Source: Spraguea lophii
Lineage: Eukaryota > Microsporidia > Spragueidae
NCBI GenBank assembly: GCA_001887945.1
Contig: LDOQ01000282.1
Span: 1-54,858, forward strand
Length of the DNA: 54,858 nucleotides
Direction of reading: 5' to 3'
Shown here: in pieces, positions 6,575 through 47,285 of the stretch
Layout: each line of letters starts with the position of its first letter
How positions within the stretch are numbered: the stretch's first letter is position 1
Made by a program: the position numbers and the translations under genes
The notes under the pieces: model-generated
Databases searched by the model: none
Told to the model about the DNA's origin: nothing
The model's input: only the letters and a program-made list of their open reading frames with translations

Positions 6575-7028
6575 ACATTTTTTAATGGAACTTTTATTTA
6601 TAGAAGTTTCTTAACTGACTCATCTTATAATGATTTATAACCTTAGTTCCTAAAGTGTATTTAAATTATACTGGCTAGATTCTCTATATATATACTAATC
6701 TTATCTTATCTTATGTTCCAGATAATTAAAATTTTGTATATGCTGCAATCATCATTCTATCACTTTTAATAATATTCTGATCTTCGTCTTGTCGTAATAT
6801 TAGTAGAATCATTAATTGATGTAGAAATTATAAATACACCAGTTGTCACTATTTTAACCAGTTAGTGTAGTTGTTGAATAAAACGTATTTGCTCCACTAT
6901 CAACCCCTTACCTAATAAATTACCTTTCTCTTCTACTTTTTATTTTTTAAAAAAGTTTTTTAAAATGAGGAATCTGAACCCACTAAGCTTAGGATTTGAT
7001 TACCATGACCATTGGACCAAACGGCTAT
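6575..7028 (-). mobile_element. Old full-length SINE copy
   Basis: Minus-strand copy, strongly drifted. The 3' end (6575-6610) carries GGAACTTTTATTTATAGAAG, the complement of the SINE tail AATAAAAGTTTC. The middle keeps TCAACCCCTTACC and ACCTTTCTCTTCT near 6899-6940. The head (6970-7025) keeps CTTAGGATTTGATTACC and GACCATTGGACCAAACGG, which correspond to the B-box to A-box region. Identity to the intact copy at 46778 is visible only in blocks. No target-site duplication can be recognised any more. Confidence 0.75.
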
Positions 7029-7940: not shown

Positions 7941-9470
7941 ATGCACAGTAGATCTTATATGTATGAAAATAAAAGTAGTGAATCTAGGCGTAAAGAAAGG
8001 GAAGAACAACAAGTAGAACTCAGAAGTCAAAGAAGAGAAAATTTGTTGAATAAAAAAAGAACAGTCGTATCATCTTCTAATGAGAGGATTTCTGATAATT
8101 TACGTATAATGAAACAGAAATTAATGGCACAGGATATGGAAACATTGTGTAAAGGGGTTTATGAGTTTAGACAACTTTTAAGTACAGAAACACATCCTCC
8201 TATACAAACAGTATTGGATTCGGGTGTTTTACCAAGATTGGTGGAATTACTTAGCAGATCTTGTTCTGCGTATAAAAATGGAAAGGAAGATTTAATATAT
8301 ACGGTAAGATTAGAAGCTGCATGGGCTGTAACAAATATAGCTTCTGGGTCTTCTGAACAAACAAATGCAGTGGTTACATGTGGTGCTATTCCTTTGTTGG
8401 TTGATATGCTTGGTGAATCAAAAGAAGATTTGGTTGATCAAAGTGTTTGGGCATTGGGTAATATTGCAGGAGATTCTGAACCTTTTAGGGATATGATTAT
8501 AAATTCTGGTGCTACCTCTCTTTTATTGACCCTTATTGAAAATATATTAAATAATAAAGCATATATAAAAATACTTAGGAATTGCACATGGTTGTTATCA
8601 AATCTAAATAGGGGTAGAACACCTGAACCACCATTAGAACATATTCAAATGTCAATAAATATGTTTAATAAACTATTAAACACTGATGATTCAGATATAT
8701 TATCAGATACTCTCTGGGCTTTAGGATATATAATTGATATGAGCACAGATAAAACGGATATGGTATTACAAATCGGAATACTCGAAAGATGTAAAATTTT
8801 TATAAATGCTTTTTTAAAAAGAACATCAGAATATACCATAGCTAAATATTGCATCCCTGCAATAGTTAGACTCCTAGGAAATATTGTTACAGGAAATGAT
8901 GACCAAACAGATAAAATCATAAAAGAAGGATTTTTACCATTACTCAAAAAAGTTTTTTATTCATACACAGACGATAGAAAAGCATCAAAAGTCAAAAAAG
9001 AAATTTGCTGGATAATGTCCAACATAGCAGCAGGAACAGATTCCCAAGTCCAAGAAATATTTGATAATGGAATAATTTCCATGTTATCCGACGCAATGAG
9101 ATATGAATTATTTGTTAAAATAGAAGCATCATACGCTATAACCAACGCGTTATCCAATATAGAAAATAACATGGATCACCTACAATTTATATTTGATGAT
9201 GAACTTTTAGAAGGAATTAAAGAAAGTCTTGAAGCACTTGACAATACACCACATATCCAAGCCCTAATACTTAATACACTAGACCACGGCCTAGAAGGTT
9301 CCAAAAAATGGGCAAAAGTAAAAGGATGTCCCAATCCTCTTATAATAAAAATAAATGAAAATGGTATTTATGATGTAATTGTTAAATTACAAGATTCTTC
9401 AGATATGAAAGTTAATACGATAGCTGAAAAAATTGTTGATGAATATGATAATGAGATAAATGAATTATAA
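7941..9470 (+). CDS. SRP1: Importin subunit alpha
   Basis: A 509-residue armadillo-repeat protein. Residues 13-40 are an importin-beta-binding domain rich in Arg/Lys (ESRRKEREEQQVELRSQRR). From about residue 65 onward ARM repeats follow, with hallmark segments LEAAWAVTNIASGSSEQT and DQSVWALGNIAGDSEPFRD that form the nuclear-localisation-signal groove through Trp/Asn pairs. The protein carries cargo with classical nuclear localisation signals into the nucleus together with importin beta. Length is near that of yeast Srp1 (about 540), with a shortened N terminus. CCC lies eight bases before the ATG. Confidence 0.95.
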   Translation: MHSRSYMYENKSSESRRKEREEQQVELRSQRRENLLNKKRTVVSSSNERISDNLRIMKQKLMAQDMETLCKGVYEFRQLLSTETHPPIQTVLDSGVLPRLVELLSRSCSAYKNGKEDLIYTVRLEAAWAVTNIASGSSEQTNAVVTCGAIPLLVDMLGESKEDLVDQSVWALGNIAGDSEPFRDMIINSGATSLLLTLIENILNNKAYIKILRNCTWLLSNLNRGRTPEPPLEHIQMSINMFNKLLNTDDSDILSDTLWALGYIIDMSTDKTDMVLQIGILERCKIFINAFLKRTSEYTIAKYCIPAIVRLLGNIVTGNDDQTDKIIKEGFLPLLKKVFYSYTDDRKASKVKKEICWIMSNIAAGTDSQVQEIFDNGIISMLSDAMRYELFVKIEASYAITNALSNIENNMDHLQFIFDDELLEGIKESLEALDNTPHIQALILNTLDHGLEGSKKWAKVKGCPNPLIIKINENGIYDVIVKLQDSSDMKVNTIAEKIVDEYDNEINEL

Positions 9471-14946: not shown

Positions 14947-15780
14947 GGGGTAGAGAATGAGTAGAATGAAAAAAAAGAAAAACATCAATGTTTTATTCGT
15001 GATATCAAACAATTATTGATTATAAAAGTTAAAATAGAAAATGTTATTGGTTATATAATATGGTTTAAATATTATTTGTTGTAAAAGTAGAGTTGATATT
15101 ATTGGTTATAAAAGATAAATAAAATATTATTGGATATAAAAGATAACTGAAAAAACAAATAACAAATATAACTTAAAATAGAAAATAAAAATATAATTAA
15201 TAATTATTTGATTATAATAATATTTTAATTATATTTATAAGATTATAAATTATAATAATCAAAATAATAATTGTTGTAGATTACAATCATATTTTAAAAG
15301 CTATTTTTATCTATTCTCTTAAATTTATAAAATAAATATATTATTAAGATATAATTTATAAGAAAAAGATTATATTTTATAATCATAATCTATTACTATA
15401 ATATTATACATATAATTAATTATTACATTTATAATAATTTTATATACATTTTTATCTTATAACTAAATACTTTAATAAATTTTATTATAAAATATCATTG
15501 ATAATATTAAATTAGTATATTAAACTAATATATCAGTATATAAGGTTAGGTTATACCATATACATTATAATAGTAAATATATCAATATAATAATATAATA
15601 TTATTATTATATTATCACTATCATTACCACATCTATATCACATCTACAATACACCTACAACATATCTACATTATATTACTATCCTATCACATCTATATCA
15701 TCATTATATCATATATACACTTCTGATACTGTTTTATAATGTTTTTTAAAAAACATTATTACCCACCCCCACACTCTTAA
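14947..15780. promoter_or_regulatory. Divergent intergenic region with CCC signals on both sides
   Basis: GGGG at 14947-14950 (CCCC on the minus strand) serves the leftward 80-residue gene. TTACCCACCCCCACACTC at about 15760-15777 serves the VAP gene on the right. Between them is AT-rich DNA; 15620-15740 is pyrimidine-rich with repeated CACATCTATATC-like motifs. No gene seen. Confidence 0.5.
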
Positions 15781-16236
15781 ATGATATCATCCCAAATATC
15801 TATTTCCGACAAAATAATTATAGACCCTACTACAAAAAAAGGTAATATAATTATCCATAATCGAGGACTTACTGGTTGCGCATACAAAATAAAGACTACG
15901 AATCCTAAAGGATATACTGTAAAACCAAGTATAGATATTATTCCCCCACTTGAAAATGCTACCGTAATAATATTATTAAACGATAAAATAAATAATGATG
16001 ATAAATTCATGATAGAAGTATACGAGGTAGATTGGAGAGATAAAAATTTGGATTTAAAAACATCGTTGGGTAAAGAAAGAGCACCTATAATATTATCTAA
16101 GAAATTAATGGTCGTAATAAAACAACAGCCAGCGCATAATGTGCATAGTGATATACATAGTTTGATAGATGGTGTTATGTTGGTAAGCATATTTATTAAG
16201 ATGATGGGTATTTTTAAGGCATTGGTATTTGAATAA
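15781..16236 (+). CDS. VAP/Scs2-like MSP-domain protein
   Basis: A 151-residue protein with an MSP domain (residues about 5-115) and a C-terminal hydrophobic anchor (about 125-148). The segment YKIKTTNPKGYTVKPS closely matches the FKVKTTAPKRYCVRP signature of VAMP-associated proteins, whose Lys/Thr residues bind FFAT motifs. VAPs sit in the ER membrane and tether lipid-transfer and other proteins. No coiled coil separates the MSP domain from the anchor, so it is a minimal form. The minus-strand open frame over the same bases is a shadow. Confidence 0.85.
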   Translation: MISSQISISDKIIIDPTTKKGNIIIHNRGLTGCAYKIKTTNPKGYTVKPSIDIIPPLENATVIILLNDKINNDDKFMIEVYEVDWRDKNLDLKTSLGKERAPIILSKKLMVVIKQQPAHNVHSDIHSLIDGVMLVSIFIKMMGIFKALVFE

Positions 16237-28569: not shown

Positions 28570-29014
28570 CCCTAAAATATCTTCAATTAAATTAATATAA
28601 ATTCTTGGTCTTATACTAAAAAGAATTTCAAAAAAAAATAATAGAAAAAGATAGAAGAGGGAAGTTGTTAAATGGATTAGAGTTTGATAATGTAACATTA
28701 ATTATATCTCGTATAATGTCACTATTAGTATAGTAAAGCAGTGGTTGGCCAGTGTAATTACAATCCATTTATTGTTTCTGATTCAGCAAATATTATACCA
28801 CAAAAATCAGGAATCCCTAAAAAGTTGGGGGGAAGCGGAAATGTGTACCTTACGCAAATTCCTATCATCCTGAAGCACAAGACAAATGTAATGCATATCA
28901 ATAACAAATCTAATTGGTACGATTTTAAATATGCTTAAGAAACAAAAGTTATAAATCATACTATTCCACAACCCACCAGAAACTTCTATATATAAAAGTT
29001 TCATTTAAAAAAAT
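28570..29014 (+). mobile_element. Old near full-length SINE copy
   Basis: Plus-strand copy aligned in blocks with 46778..47268. Landmarks in order are AATTTCAAAAAAAAATAATAG (28624), GTAAAGCAGTGGTTGGCCAG, AATTACAATCCATTTATTG, TGATTCAGCAAATATTATACC, GGAATCCCTAAAAAGTTGGG, CCTTACGCAAATTCCTATCA, TAATGCATATC and the tail ATATAAAAGTTTCATT at 28990. The head is drifted. The short open frames on both strands here are chance readings of the element. Confidence 0.8.
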
Positions 29015-33836: not shown

Positions 33837-35401
<1,565 letters not shown>

Positions 35402-37583: not shown

Positions 37584-38423
37584 ATGCTGTTCTTTTTAAG
37601 TTTAACACAGGCAATGAAATATGCATTTGTTACTAATACTGTAAAGATTGTAAATTCAGTTAATGATATTATTGTGTTTGATTCCGATATGGTAGATGAT
37701 GCACTTTTAGGTGAAGAATCTTCTAAATTCCGAAAAATCGCCGTCGAAACATTAAGAAAAAAACTCGTAGGAAAAAAACTTCAACACTTGGTAGAATCCG
37801 ATTTTAAAGATGTATTGGATGTCAGAGCAGATAAGAATGTGTTCATAAATAAGATGTATAATTATATAATATCAAAATTTATATATGATAAAGAAGAAGA
37901 AAAGAATATGAAAAACAATAAAAAGGCAATTGTAAAGTTTTTAACAATTACATACGATCATTTTGTAGACAAAAAGAATAAGAGATATGAAGAATTGGGT
38001 TTATTCTTAGGTAACGCTTTTCATAATACCAGTTATCTTAAAGTAATGCTTAATAAATCTAATCAACAAGTTGAAGAATCCAAAGGAGTTAATCAATGCA
38101 GAGGATTATTACAAATAACAGGAGATGCTTATAAAACAGCCAATAATTATGGTGGATCAACCGATTTTTTGAAAAATCCAGAAAAAATGGCATATTTAGA
38201 AGAAGATAGTATTAAAGCTACATTGTTTTTCTATAATGTAATTACAAAAGAAATTAGAGATAGAAATAAAAATCTAACTTTTGAAAAACTCTTAAAGGCA
38301 CTTAACCCAATAGAAGTTCAAGGAGAAAATTCTAAACAAGAACAATTCAAGAAATTAATTGCAAAGAGAAAGGCTATCTGTGTAGAGGTGTGTACTGTAT
38401 TAGAGTATTATAATGATCAATAA
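37584..38423 (+). CDS. Secreted GH19 chitinase-like protein, copy 1 (catalytic Glu replaced)
   Basis: A 279-residue protein with a signal-like start (MLFFLSLTQA). Residues 135-225 resemble the glycoside hydrolase 19 core: FLGNAFHNTSYLK (145-153 region) stands where chitinases have FLAQxxHETxxx, CRGLLQITGDAY (172-183) matches the YRGRGxxQLTG motif, and FLKNPEKMA ... SIKATLFFY matches the NPDLVA ... KTALWFW segment. GH19 enzymes cut chitin, a spore-wall polymer. The proton-donor Glu of HET is Asn148 here, so ordinary catalysis is doubtful; chitin binding is a reasonable guess. Its tandem paralogue starts 450 bases downstream. GH19 membership is inferred by eye from these motifs. Confidence 0.65.
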   Translation: MLFFLSLTQAMKYAFVTNTVKIVNSVNDIIVFDSDMVDDALLGEESSKFRKIAVETLRKKLVGKKLQHLVESDFKDVLDVRADKNVFINKMYNYIISKFIYDKEEEKNMKNNKKAIVKFLTITYDHFVDKKNKRYEELGLFLGNAFHNTSYLKVMLNKSNQQVEESKGVNQCRGLLQITGDAYKTANNYGGSTDFLKNPEKMAYLEEDSIKATLFFYNVITKEIRDRNKNLTFEKLLKALNPIEVQGENSKQEQFKKLIAKRKAICVEVCTVLEYYNDQ

Positions 38424-38872: not shown

Positions 38873-39712
38873 ATGTTACTTTTCTTGCCTTTATTTCAAT
38901 CACGACTTGTCTTTAATACACCTGTTAAAACCACACCAGCTGAAACTGTATTATGTGATTTTGCAAAGATAGACAAACTACTTTCTCAAGATCTTGTAAT
39001 AAATGCATTCTTAGGAGAGAATTCAAAAAAATGCAGAGAAAGTAGAATATCTAAAGATAAAGCAATCGGAATAACTACTGTAGAATTAAGAGTATGTAAT
39101 GACTTATGTCCTCTTTCACCACTTATTGATGAATGTAAATTTGTTTCTGTTTTTACTTCTTATATATATCATAAGTTAGATTACTTTATAAGAGAGAATA
39201 GAATATATAGAAGAGTTATCAGAAGATATTTGAGAATGGTGTATAATCACTTTATCAGAAAAGAAAACAATCCACATGAATTAGCTATTTTTATGGCAAA
39301 TTCATTCCACAATACCAGTTTCTTGAAAATCTTTTTAACAGAAGCAGAAATCAACGGACAAACAAAAGTAGAATTAGGTGTGAATTATTGTAGAGGTGTA
39401 TTACAAATAAAAAGTTGGGAATACTACACAATTACGGATTGCAATATTGAAAACATAAAATTTAGCAAGGAGCCACATAAAATGGCCATATTATCCAAAG
39501 GTGCATTATCCGGTACATTTTCTTTCTGGGAATATATGATTTGTGAAATAAAAAAAGATTGCAAAAAAGTCACTTATAATAATGTGCTTAAATTCTTAAA
39601 TCCTGAAGAAGTGCAAGCACAATATAAAGATAAACCTGAATATAAAGAAAAATTAGCACATAGAAGATATGTCTACAATGAAATATTGACCATCTTAGGA
39701 TTTTATCGTTAA
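38873..39712 (+). CDS. Secreted GH19 chitinase-like protein, copy 2 (catalytic Glu replaced)
   Basis: Also 279 residues and clearly paralogous to copy 1. It has signal MLLFLPLFQS, then FMANSFHNTSFLK (140-152), GVNYCRGVLQIKS (169-181) and EPHKMAILSKGALSGTFSFWE. The HNT change is shared with copy 1, so it predates the duplication. Here QITG has become QIKS as well, a further departure from an active chitinase. Cysteines absent from copy 1 are present (C28, C54, C75, C79, C88, C190), pointing to different disulfides. Tandem, same strand, equal length: a local duplication that has since diverged strongly. Confidence 0.65.
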   Translation: MLLFLPLFQSRLVFNTPVKTTPAETVLCDFAKIDKLLSQDLVINAFLGENSKKCRESRISKDKAIGITTVELRVCNDLCPLSPLIDECKFVSVFTSYIYHKLDYFIRENRIYRRVIRRYLRMVYNHFIRKENNPHELAIFMANSFHNTSFLKIFLTEAEINGQTKVELGVNYCRGVLQIKSWEYYTITDCNIENIKFSKEPHKMAILSKGALSGTFSFWEYMICEIKKDCKKVTYNNVLKFLNPEEVQAQYKDKPEYKEKLAHRRYVYNEILTILGFYR

Positions 39713-42772: not shown

Positions 42773-43232
42773 TTTTTTTTTATAGAAGTTTTCTGACCGA
42801 GTACAGTCTATCATGTTCTATGACTTTTGGTCCTTAAACACATTAAACTTGTATTAACTGATTTCGCTACAAATTGCATTAATTTCATCTTACTTTATGC
42901 TCAGAGCGTTAGGATTTTGTGTATGGTGCATGTTACCGTCATTCTCATGTTTTTTAGAGGTTCCCAACCCTTTTTTAGCATAATATTGACAGAGTTACAA
43001 ATCAATACAGGAATTGCAACACACCAGCTAAACACTACTTTAATTTAGTAATGGGACCGTTATACAAGACACGCCAATGCCACATTATCGAATCCTCACC
43101 CACTCAACAACCTTTCTCTTCTCTTCTGTCTTTTATCAGTATTTTTTTTGAAAAGTCTTTTGGGTAAGGGATTAGAACCATCAGTCTTGAGATTTGGTTG
43201 TCACCCCACGACCACTGAACCAACTGGGCTTT
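42773..43232 (-). mobile_element. Full-length SINE copy, intermediate age
   Basis: Minus-strand copy that is the second best preserved in the window. Shared blocks with the reverse complement of 46778..47268 include CATTAAACTTGTATTAACTG, GCTCAGAGCGTTAGGATTTTG, TACAAATCAATACAGGAATT, ACACTACTTTAATTTAGTA, TCACCCACTCAACAACCTTTC and CACCCCACGACCACTGAACC. The B-box (near 43186) is damaged (GGATTAGAACC). Flanking duplications are no longer evident. The plus-strand open frame inside it is a chance reading. Confidence 0.88.
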
Positions 43233-46760: not shown

Positions 46761-46777
46761 AATCCAATAAAAGAAGT
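46761..46777. repeat. Target-site duplication, left copy
   Basis: AATCCAATAAAAGAAGT, 17 bp, identical to 47269..47285 on the other side of the SINE. The first AA may belong to the poly(A) ambiguity, leaving at least 15 bp. Confidence 0.9.
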
Positions 46778-47268
46778 CCCGCCTGGCCCAGTGGTCGTGG
46801 GGTGGTAACCAAACCCCAAGCCTGGCGGGTTCGAATCCCTCATCCAGAAAAAAATTTTCAAAACAAAAAAAAATAATAATAAACGGAGAAGAGAAGAAAA
46901 AGGTTGTTGAGTGGGTGAGGTTTCGATAGCGCAGCATAGCTGTGCCTTGTATGACGGCCCCGCTACTAGATTAAAGTAGTGTTCAGCTGATGTAGTTGCA
47001 ATCCCTGTATTGATTTGTGACTCGGCCAATACTATGCAACGAAAGAGGCTGGGAATTCCTTAAGAGCTGGAAGTGGGGGCGGCGACGCGCACCATACGCA
47101 AAATCCTAACACTCTGGAGCATAAGGTAAGATGAGATTAATGCATATCTGTAGTGAAACCAGTTAGTACAAGTTTAATGTCGCTCGAGGAACCGAAGGTC
47201 ACAGACCATGGTAGGCCGCAACCGGCCAGGAAGCTTTGATAAATAAAAGTTTCATTCGTAAAAAAAAA
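46778..47268 (+). mobile_element. Intact tRNA-derived SINE, 491 bp, young insertion
   Basis: The element begins CCCGCCTGG, carries a Pol III A-box TGGCCCAGTGG at 46784..46794 and a perfect B-box GGTTCGAATCC at 46828..46838, then a body unrelated to tRNA, a tail ATAAATAAAAGTTTCATT and a run of at least ten A. Identical 17-bp duplications flank it, which shows target-primed reverse transcription. Base composition is near 45% GC against about 20% in the surroundings, so it is recent or constrained. It encodes no credible protein; open frames across it are chance. No LINE partner is present in the window. Confidence 0.93.
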
Positions 47269-47285
47269 AATCCAATAAAAGAAGT
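47269..47285. repeat. Target-site duplication, right copy
   Basis: Identical to 46761..46777; it follows the poly(A) end of the SINE. Confidence 0.9.

Follow-up and report, generated by a model that had tools for sequence, protein, structure and literature searches.

SINEs derived from tRNAs are known in animals, plants and fungi, and stringent LINE/SINE pairs with a 3' stem-loop, for example those of the UnaL2 type, are likewise established. UnaL2-type stringent pairs are covered in two articles (PMC4176376, PMC5135761). For Microsporidia, excerpts of published articles indicate that non-LTR retrotransposons are known (PMC4202319) and that Dong-R4 LINEs occur in Microsporidia sp. MB (PMC13174016). 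SINEs and LINE/SINE pairs are well-known kinds of element; in the open-access literature searched we found no SINE/LINE pair reported for Microsporidia, and an unnamed repeat-library entry may exist. The word SINE is absent from the main text of six articles on microsporidia, PMC4202319, PMC12558613, PMC12449221, PMC11592040, PMC13174016 and PMC7313128.

The element described here lies in the window, by which we mean the whole stretch of 54,858 nucleotides that was analysed; it is contig C30 of a 5.27-Mb assembly in 73 contigs. The window starts with CCTAA telomere-type repeats, and its GC content per kb ranges from 0.13 to 0.31. Because microsporidia supply the best named matches of an importin-alpha gene at 7941-9470 (Astathelohania contejeani, 47%; Hamiltosporidium tvaerminnensis, 46%; Vavraia; Vairimorpha), we regard the genome as microsporidian; a microsporidian SSU rRNA was not found in the assembly. 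The window element is very likely a recently inserted copy of a multi-copy microsporidian SINE, which would have spread by LINE-driven retroposition. It resembles tRNA-derived SINEs in its A and B boxes, its length of less than 700 bp, its non-coding nature, its target-site duplications, its A-tail and its LINE-related 3' part. It differs from them in that no parent tRNA can be named and in that the host has a small, AT-rich microsporidian genome. As in UnaL2-type pairs, the SINE has sequence of its 3' region in common with a LINE from the same genome, and a hairpin is located near the SINE 3' end. However, the strong homology here is to an internal block of the LINE 3' UTR, and the terminal similarity is short. 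Compared with the LINEs described from microsporidia, the present LINE is best matched by an unnamed database protein, P0141 (75%), with an RVT_1 match and a weak Exo_endo_phos match.

The window copy, of about 490 bp (the SINE measures about 485 bp plus A-tail), consists of A and B boxes followed by an A-rich linker, a body, a LINE-like block, a hairpin and an A-tail. It is bounded on the forward strand by perfect 17-bp direct repeats, AATCCAATAAAAGAAGT, at 46761-46777 and 47269-47285, which we annotated as the 5' and 3' target-site duplications; the final two bases (GT) of the former may belong to the element and the initial two (AA) of the latter to the A-tail. A constant (A)GT precedes CCCGCC in nearly all copies, so the SINE probably starts at 46776 and the window copy has a duplication of 15-17 bp (15 if the conserved 5' GT is part of the element). 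The whole copy including the A-tail spans 46776-47268 (+); most copies carry an invariant (A)GTCCCGCC at the 5' end and CATTCGTA(A)n at the 3' end. An earlier reading of the window, made from the sequence alone, had noted the two boxes and had given coordinates for the element and its repeats that prove right; the perfect 17-bp repeat is confirmed, and one refinement concerns the start of the element and the extent of the duplication. The GC content of 46778-47260 is 0.464, compared with 0.216 in about 4 kb of flanks, in line with the twofold difference reported in that reading.

The tRNA-like head (46776-46847, +), a putative Pol III promoter region, contains an A box, TGGCCCAGTGG, at 46784-46794 and a B box, GGTTCGAATCC, at 46828-46838 (both +), assigned by comparison with the box consensus sequences. 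Each pattern has a single match on the forward strand of the whole window, and the A and B box pattern is present in 40 of the 41 young copies. Among 23 distinct tRNAs from the examined loci, tRNA-Arg(TCG) was closest to the head (z 8.6), in a comparison in which tRNAs share the boxes anyway. The label "tRNA-derived", which had been proposed from the sequence alone, is tentative and relies on the two promoter boxes and a weak similarity to tRNAs. Neither ARAGORN nor Rfam called a tRNA in the head, which folds no better than shuffled sequences (z -0.4).

Downstream of the head is an A-rich linker (46848-46883, +) that holds the sole TTTT run of the element, at 46855-46858. Among the copies listed, 36 of the 41 young ones carry this run in almost the same position and three have none; it is a possible weak Pol III stop. 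The central body (46884-47182, +) is of unassigned origin, with no match to the LINE 5' part on C72, no convincing match to LINE proteins among those listed, and only chance-level matches to Rfam. It is followed by the block common to the SINE and the LINE 3' UTR (47183-47231, +) and by an 8-bp 3' hairpin, GAAGCTTT/AAAGTTTC (47230-47253, +; -8.0 kcal/mol, z -5.1), and none of 200 shuffled sequences folded as well as this hairpin. When four tails of older copies were also folded, a 7-bp stem was retained in three (z -3.9 to -4.4) but not in the fourth (z -0.2). The poly(A) end proposed earlier is seen as an A-rich lead from CGTA to the duplication, with a median of 8.5 nt in the 36 copies that have a duplication of at least 10 nt. 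Stops are present in all six frames of the SINE, and the longest open stretch is about 95 codons on the antisense strand; the proteins with which these frames were compared were LINE-type proteins.

A DNA search of the assembly with the element recovered 40 copies that are 97-100% identical to it, counting the one in the window, as well as two diverged copies; 40 of 453 first-look candidates were scored in this search, so the copy counts are lower bounds. A 26-nt motif from the body, with up to three mismatches allowed, matched the genome at 152 places, and the reversed-pattern control matched at none. Comparison of the letters placed six of seven LINE sites of the shared block within the limit of this motif, leaving about 146 SINE sites, which we estimate would make up about 1.4% of the genome if every site were full length. 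The exact 26-mer had no match in a set of viral contigs and none in bacterial and archaeal genome contigs. On five contigs (C15, C25, C54, C56 and C60; among 100 of the 152 places listed), the motif is at exactly positions 56-81. That five contigs start at about the same SINE base indicates that the assembly breaks in SINE copies, which again makes the counts lower bounds. The exact 18-nt SINE tail was also found at 14 sites without SINE letters just upstream; such sites could represent old SINEs, members of other SINE families or the tails of LINEs.

For the analysis of target-site duplications, we sampled 42 distinct young copies (at least 95% identity, with enough flank) from 40 loci (L001-L040) and set aside one 5'-truncated copy, leaving 41. 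An exact duplication of its own of at least 10 bp (10-17 nt) flanks 36 of these 41 copies, with a median of 14 for all 41. Because only 26 of 1640 pairs of flanks taken from different copies reached a duplication of at least 10 bp, the repeats are not due to chance. The remaining five comprise L026, where a 14-nt duplication is located a few bases further upstream, outside the rule used, L013, where duplications are swapped, and three copies with 6, 8 and 9 nt. At L013 (C1:142814-144265), a pair of young SINEs that face opposite ways, 593 bp apart, have exchanged their target-site duplications; this looks like the outcome expected from inversion of the intervening stretch by recombination, or from misassembly through the SINEs. 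The composition of the target site was T at 61% for -1 and A at 50% for +1 (n = 36), in a test in which the duplication was extended leftward while it matched and the lead on the 3' side is A-rich, so that A at -1 is excluded by construction; we claim no nick motif. The insertion sites are AT-rich, as is the genome anyway.

The window copy is 100% identical to L002 over 483 bp and is at a different site. When its joined flanks were compared with the assembly, they matched their own site only, and we found no larger duplication and no empty site on another contig. Neither of the two outcomes that the sequence-only reading had named as refuting it was observed: many other copies with independent flanks exist in the genome, and no larger segmental duplication around the 17-bp repeats was seen. 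Segmental duplication as the main means of spread is ruled out by the unrelated flanks of the copies and by their own duplications.

The same reading had called for a LINE-type reverse transcriptase elsewhere in the genome, and one is present, in pieces. The nine RVT_1 matches in the genome comprise three elements of LTR type (assigned for two by their aspartyl protease matches and for the third by inference), a telomerase (two matches), a LINE fragment on C72, a LINE relic on C48, and unclassified matches on C56 and C5. The telomerase reverse transcriptase (L084; C2:64500-70500) has an RNA-binding domain and is rich in Asn/Asp repeats. The C72 fragment is located at a contig edge and is 75% identical to P0141 (1216 aa) over 99% of the fragment; a comparison of the fragment with Pfam at 1e-3 gave no match. 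P0141 itself matches RVT_1 (E 6e-40) and reaches 20.1 bits for Exo_endo_phos, below the curated cut-off of 24.5. A search of the genome with P0141 gave 21 matches, which cover both the endonuclease and the RT regions. The 5' half of the LINE is on C72, where the 5' part aligns to P0141 in three pieces, one with a stop, and C-terminal parts are at contig edges of C63 (both ends), C11 and C61. Further matches, partly broken, are on C11, C21, C27, C34, C48 and C1. No complete LINE was seen in the assembly, where no contig joins the 5' part to a 3' part; the LINE probably has several copies that were collapsed or broken during assembly. The C48 relic is strongly decayed, and it was rejected as a source of the LINE 3' end because it is interrupted by a different dispersed repeat.

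Within 300 bases after the C63 LINE ORF, a 49-bp block is identical to the SINE majority sequence at 44 of 49 positions (E 3e-13), and its alignment score is 73, whereas the best of 1000 shuffles reaches 34. In its LINE form, the block was found at seven places in the genome (control, 0); at five of them (C63 twice, C61, C11 and C21) it follows the end of a LINE protein match by 78-94 bp. This spacing indicates that the block is part of the LINE 3' UTR rather than a SINE that had entered a single LINE copy. The block sites on C6 and C8 have no P0141 match and may be 5'-truncated LINE copies. The two LINE 3' ends that were read are alike across the 127 nt following the block, and the SINE is without most of these 127 nt. 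The same two hairpins are predicted for the SINE and LINE blocks in three of four sequences, and the fourth loses the outer pairs of the first hairpin; the z-score of the block fold is -3.2 for the SINE and a modest -1.1 to -1.8 for the LINE forms.

The SINE tail and the LINE tails share ATAAATAAA(A)nTTTC, with 13 or 14 of 15 nt alike depending on the LINE copy. Scores as high are reached by 89 or 4 of 2000 shuffles and by 143 or 24 of 4448 48-mers of the window for the respective LINE copies, and the similarity is suggestive only through its position. No counterpart of the terminal SINE hairpin forms when the LINE tails are folded, and the 42-nt LINE tail pattern, with up to three mismatches, matched only its own site in the genome. 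On one detail this differs from the sequence-only reading, which looked to a LINE 3' end sharing the SINE tail: the tail similarity is weak when taken alone, and the strong homology is in the 49-bp block just upstream in the SINE. We rejected an origin of the central body in the 5' part or ORF of the LINE, as the body had no match to the LINE 5' part and, among the matches listed, none that was convincing to LINE proteins or the ORF. The LINE, with a reverse transcriptase and a putative endonuclease, is the probable partner of the SINE.

These observations are consistent with a scheme in which RNA polymerase III would transcribe the SINE, as its boxes suggest, and the LINE reverse transcriptase would recognise the SINE RNA through its LINE-derived 3' sequence, to which the shared block points; the part recognised could be the block with its two hairpins, the hairpin at the SINE terminus or the tail. 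The LINE endonuclease would then nick AT-rich target DNA, and target-primed reverse transcription would insert the SINE and leave the duplications, in keeping with the variable 10-17 bp duplications, the A-tails and the 5'-truncated copy. More tentatively, and with the balance somewhat against it, we propose a resident and long-active SINE/LINE pair in which recognition goes through a movable two-hairpin module inside the 3' UTR and not through the extreme 3' end, the SINE having kept this module but lost most of the 127 nt found downstream of it in the LINE.

It may be that another reverse transcriptase mobilised the SINE, and that the block passed from the SINE to the LINE or is a coincidental older insertion. 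The block is not terminal, being separated from the LINE 3' end by about 127 nt, the tails are only weakly alike, the LTR-type elements and the telomerase are further sources of reverse transcriptase, and the RVT_1 matches on C56 and C5 are unclassified, all of which would fit such an origin. However, the spacing of five of the seven block sites relative to the LINE protein match is that expected of a LINE 3' UTR, the sequence after the block is alike in two LINE copies, and the variable 10-17 bp duplications and A-tails point to LINE-type insertion. Variable duplications with A-tails fit LINE-type insertion and not LTR integration. We consider mobilisation by another reverse transcriptase unlikely.

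The copies that we attribute to LINE-driven retroposition differ widely in age. Of 61 non-redundant copies compared with the window copy, 45 are 95-100% identical, one is 90% identical and 15 are 66-83% identical; this set includes the window copy and is limited to copies of at least 150 bp, leaves out exact duplicates (L002, for example), and is enriched for young copies because loci were picked by similarity. The 41 young copies diverge from their majority sequence by a mean of 1.1%. The window itself contains four older copies or fragments found by similarity: a copy at 42774-43217 (-; 78% identical), a copy at 28629-29005 (+; 67%) that keeps the tail and hairpin, a 3' fragment at 6584-6746 (-; 70%) in which the tail hairpin is disrupted, and a fragment at 35096-35153 (-; 83% over 58 bp).

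In old copies, G/C has changed to A/T at 36.5% of G/C positions (n = 2288) and A/T to G/C at 7.4% of A/T positions (n = 2870), and their GC content is 0.24-0.40. The rate of C-to-T is 0.26-0.33 across all four contexts, and that of C-to-A in CG, at 0.11, is roughly double the 0.05-0.06 of the other contexts. RIP-like or CpG-driven decay was rejected because C-to-T is alike in the four contexts, and a general AT bias fits better. Since older copies have decayed toward AT, we read the high GC content of young copies as a mark of youth, with the composition of the source retained, and not as a sign of foreign origin.

A GC content twice that of the surroundings could also be explained if the SINE had recently been acquired from an animal host by horizontal transfer, or if it were host contamination, and microsporidia are reported, in a passage of PMC4202319, to exchange transposable elements with metazoans. 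The same genome, however, holds the decayed old copies described above, four of them in the window, together with the strongly decayed C48 relic of the LINE, and the window copy shares its contig with the microsporidian importin-alpha gene. Recent horizontal gain is disfavoured by the old decayed copies, and we judge transfer or contamination from the host to be very improbable. If the copies were instead functional genes for a structured RNA that had multiplied through segmental duplication and not through retroposition, this would account for the conserved promoter boxes and hairpins, but hardly for unrelated flanks, duplications of their own in most copies, A-tails and a 5'-truncated copy, and the probability of this reading is negligible.

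Microsporidia are a model for eukaryotic genome reduction, and about 146 recognisable sites of this SINE in 5.27 Mb, with a young layer over an old one, suggest that LINE-dependent retroposition can persist in a reduced genome. The strong AT mutation bias dates the SINE copies internally, and their insertions offer presence/absence markers for isolates. Because this assembly also contains the LINE that is probably the partner of the SINE, the question of recognition can be tested.

Another dispersed repeat was seen at about 2215-2430 of locus L083, with 10 further places at 73-77% identity and matches on C1, C5, C63, C45, C67, C72, C21, C18 and C71; a young SINE is inserted in the L083 repeat. 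In the window, two ORFs of more than 130 aa on opposite strands, at 15777-16190 (-) and 15781-16236 (+), overlap almost fully. The window also encodes two tandem proteins of 279 aa, at 37584-38423 and 38873-39712 (both +), which are 30% identical to each other and presumably resemble family 19 chitinases.
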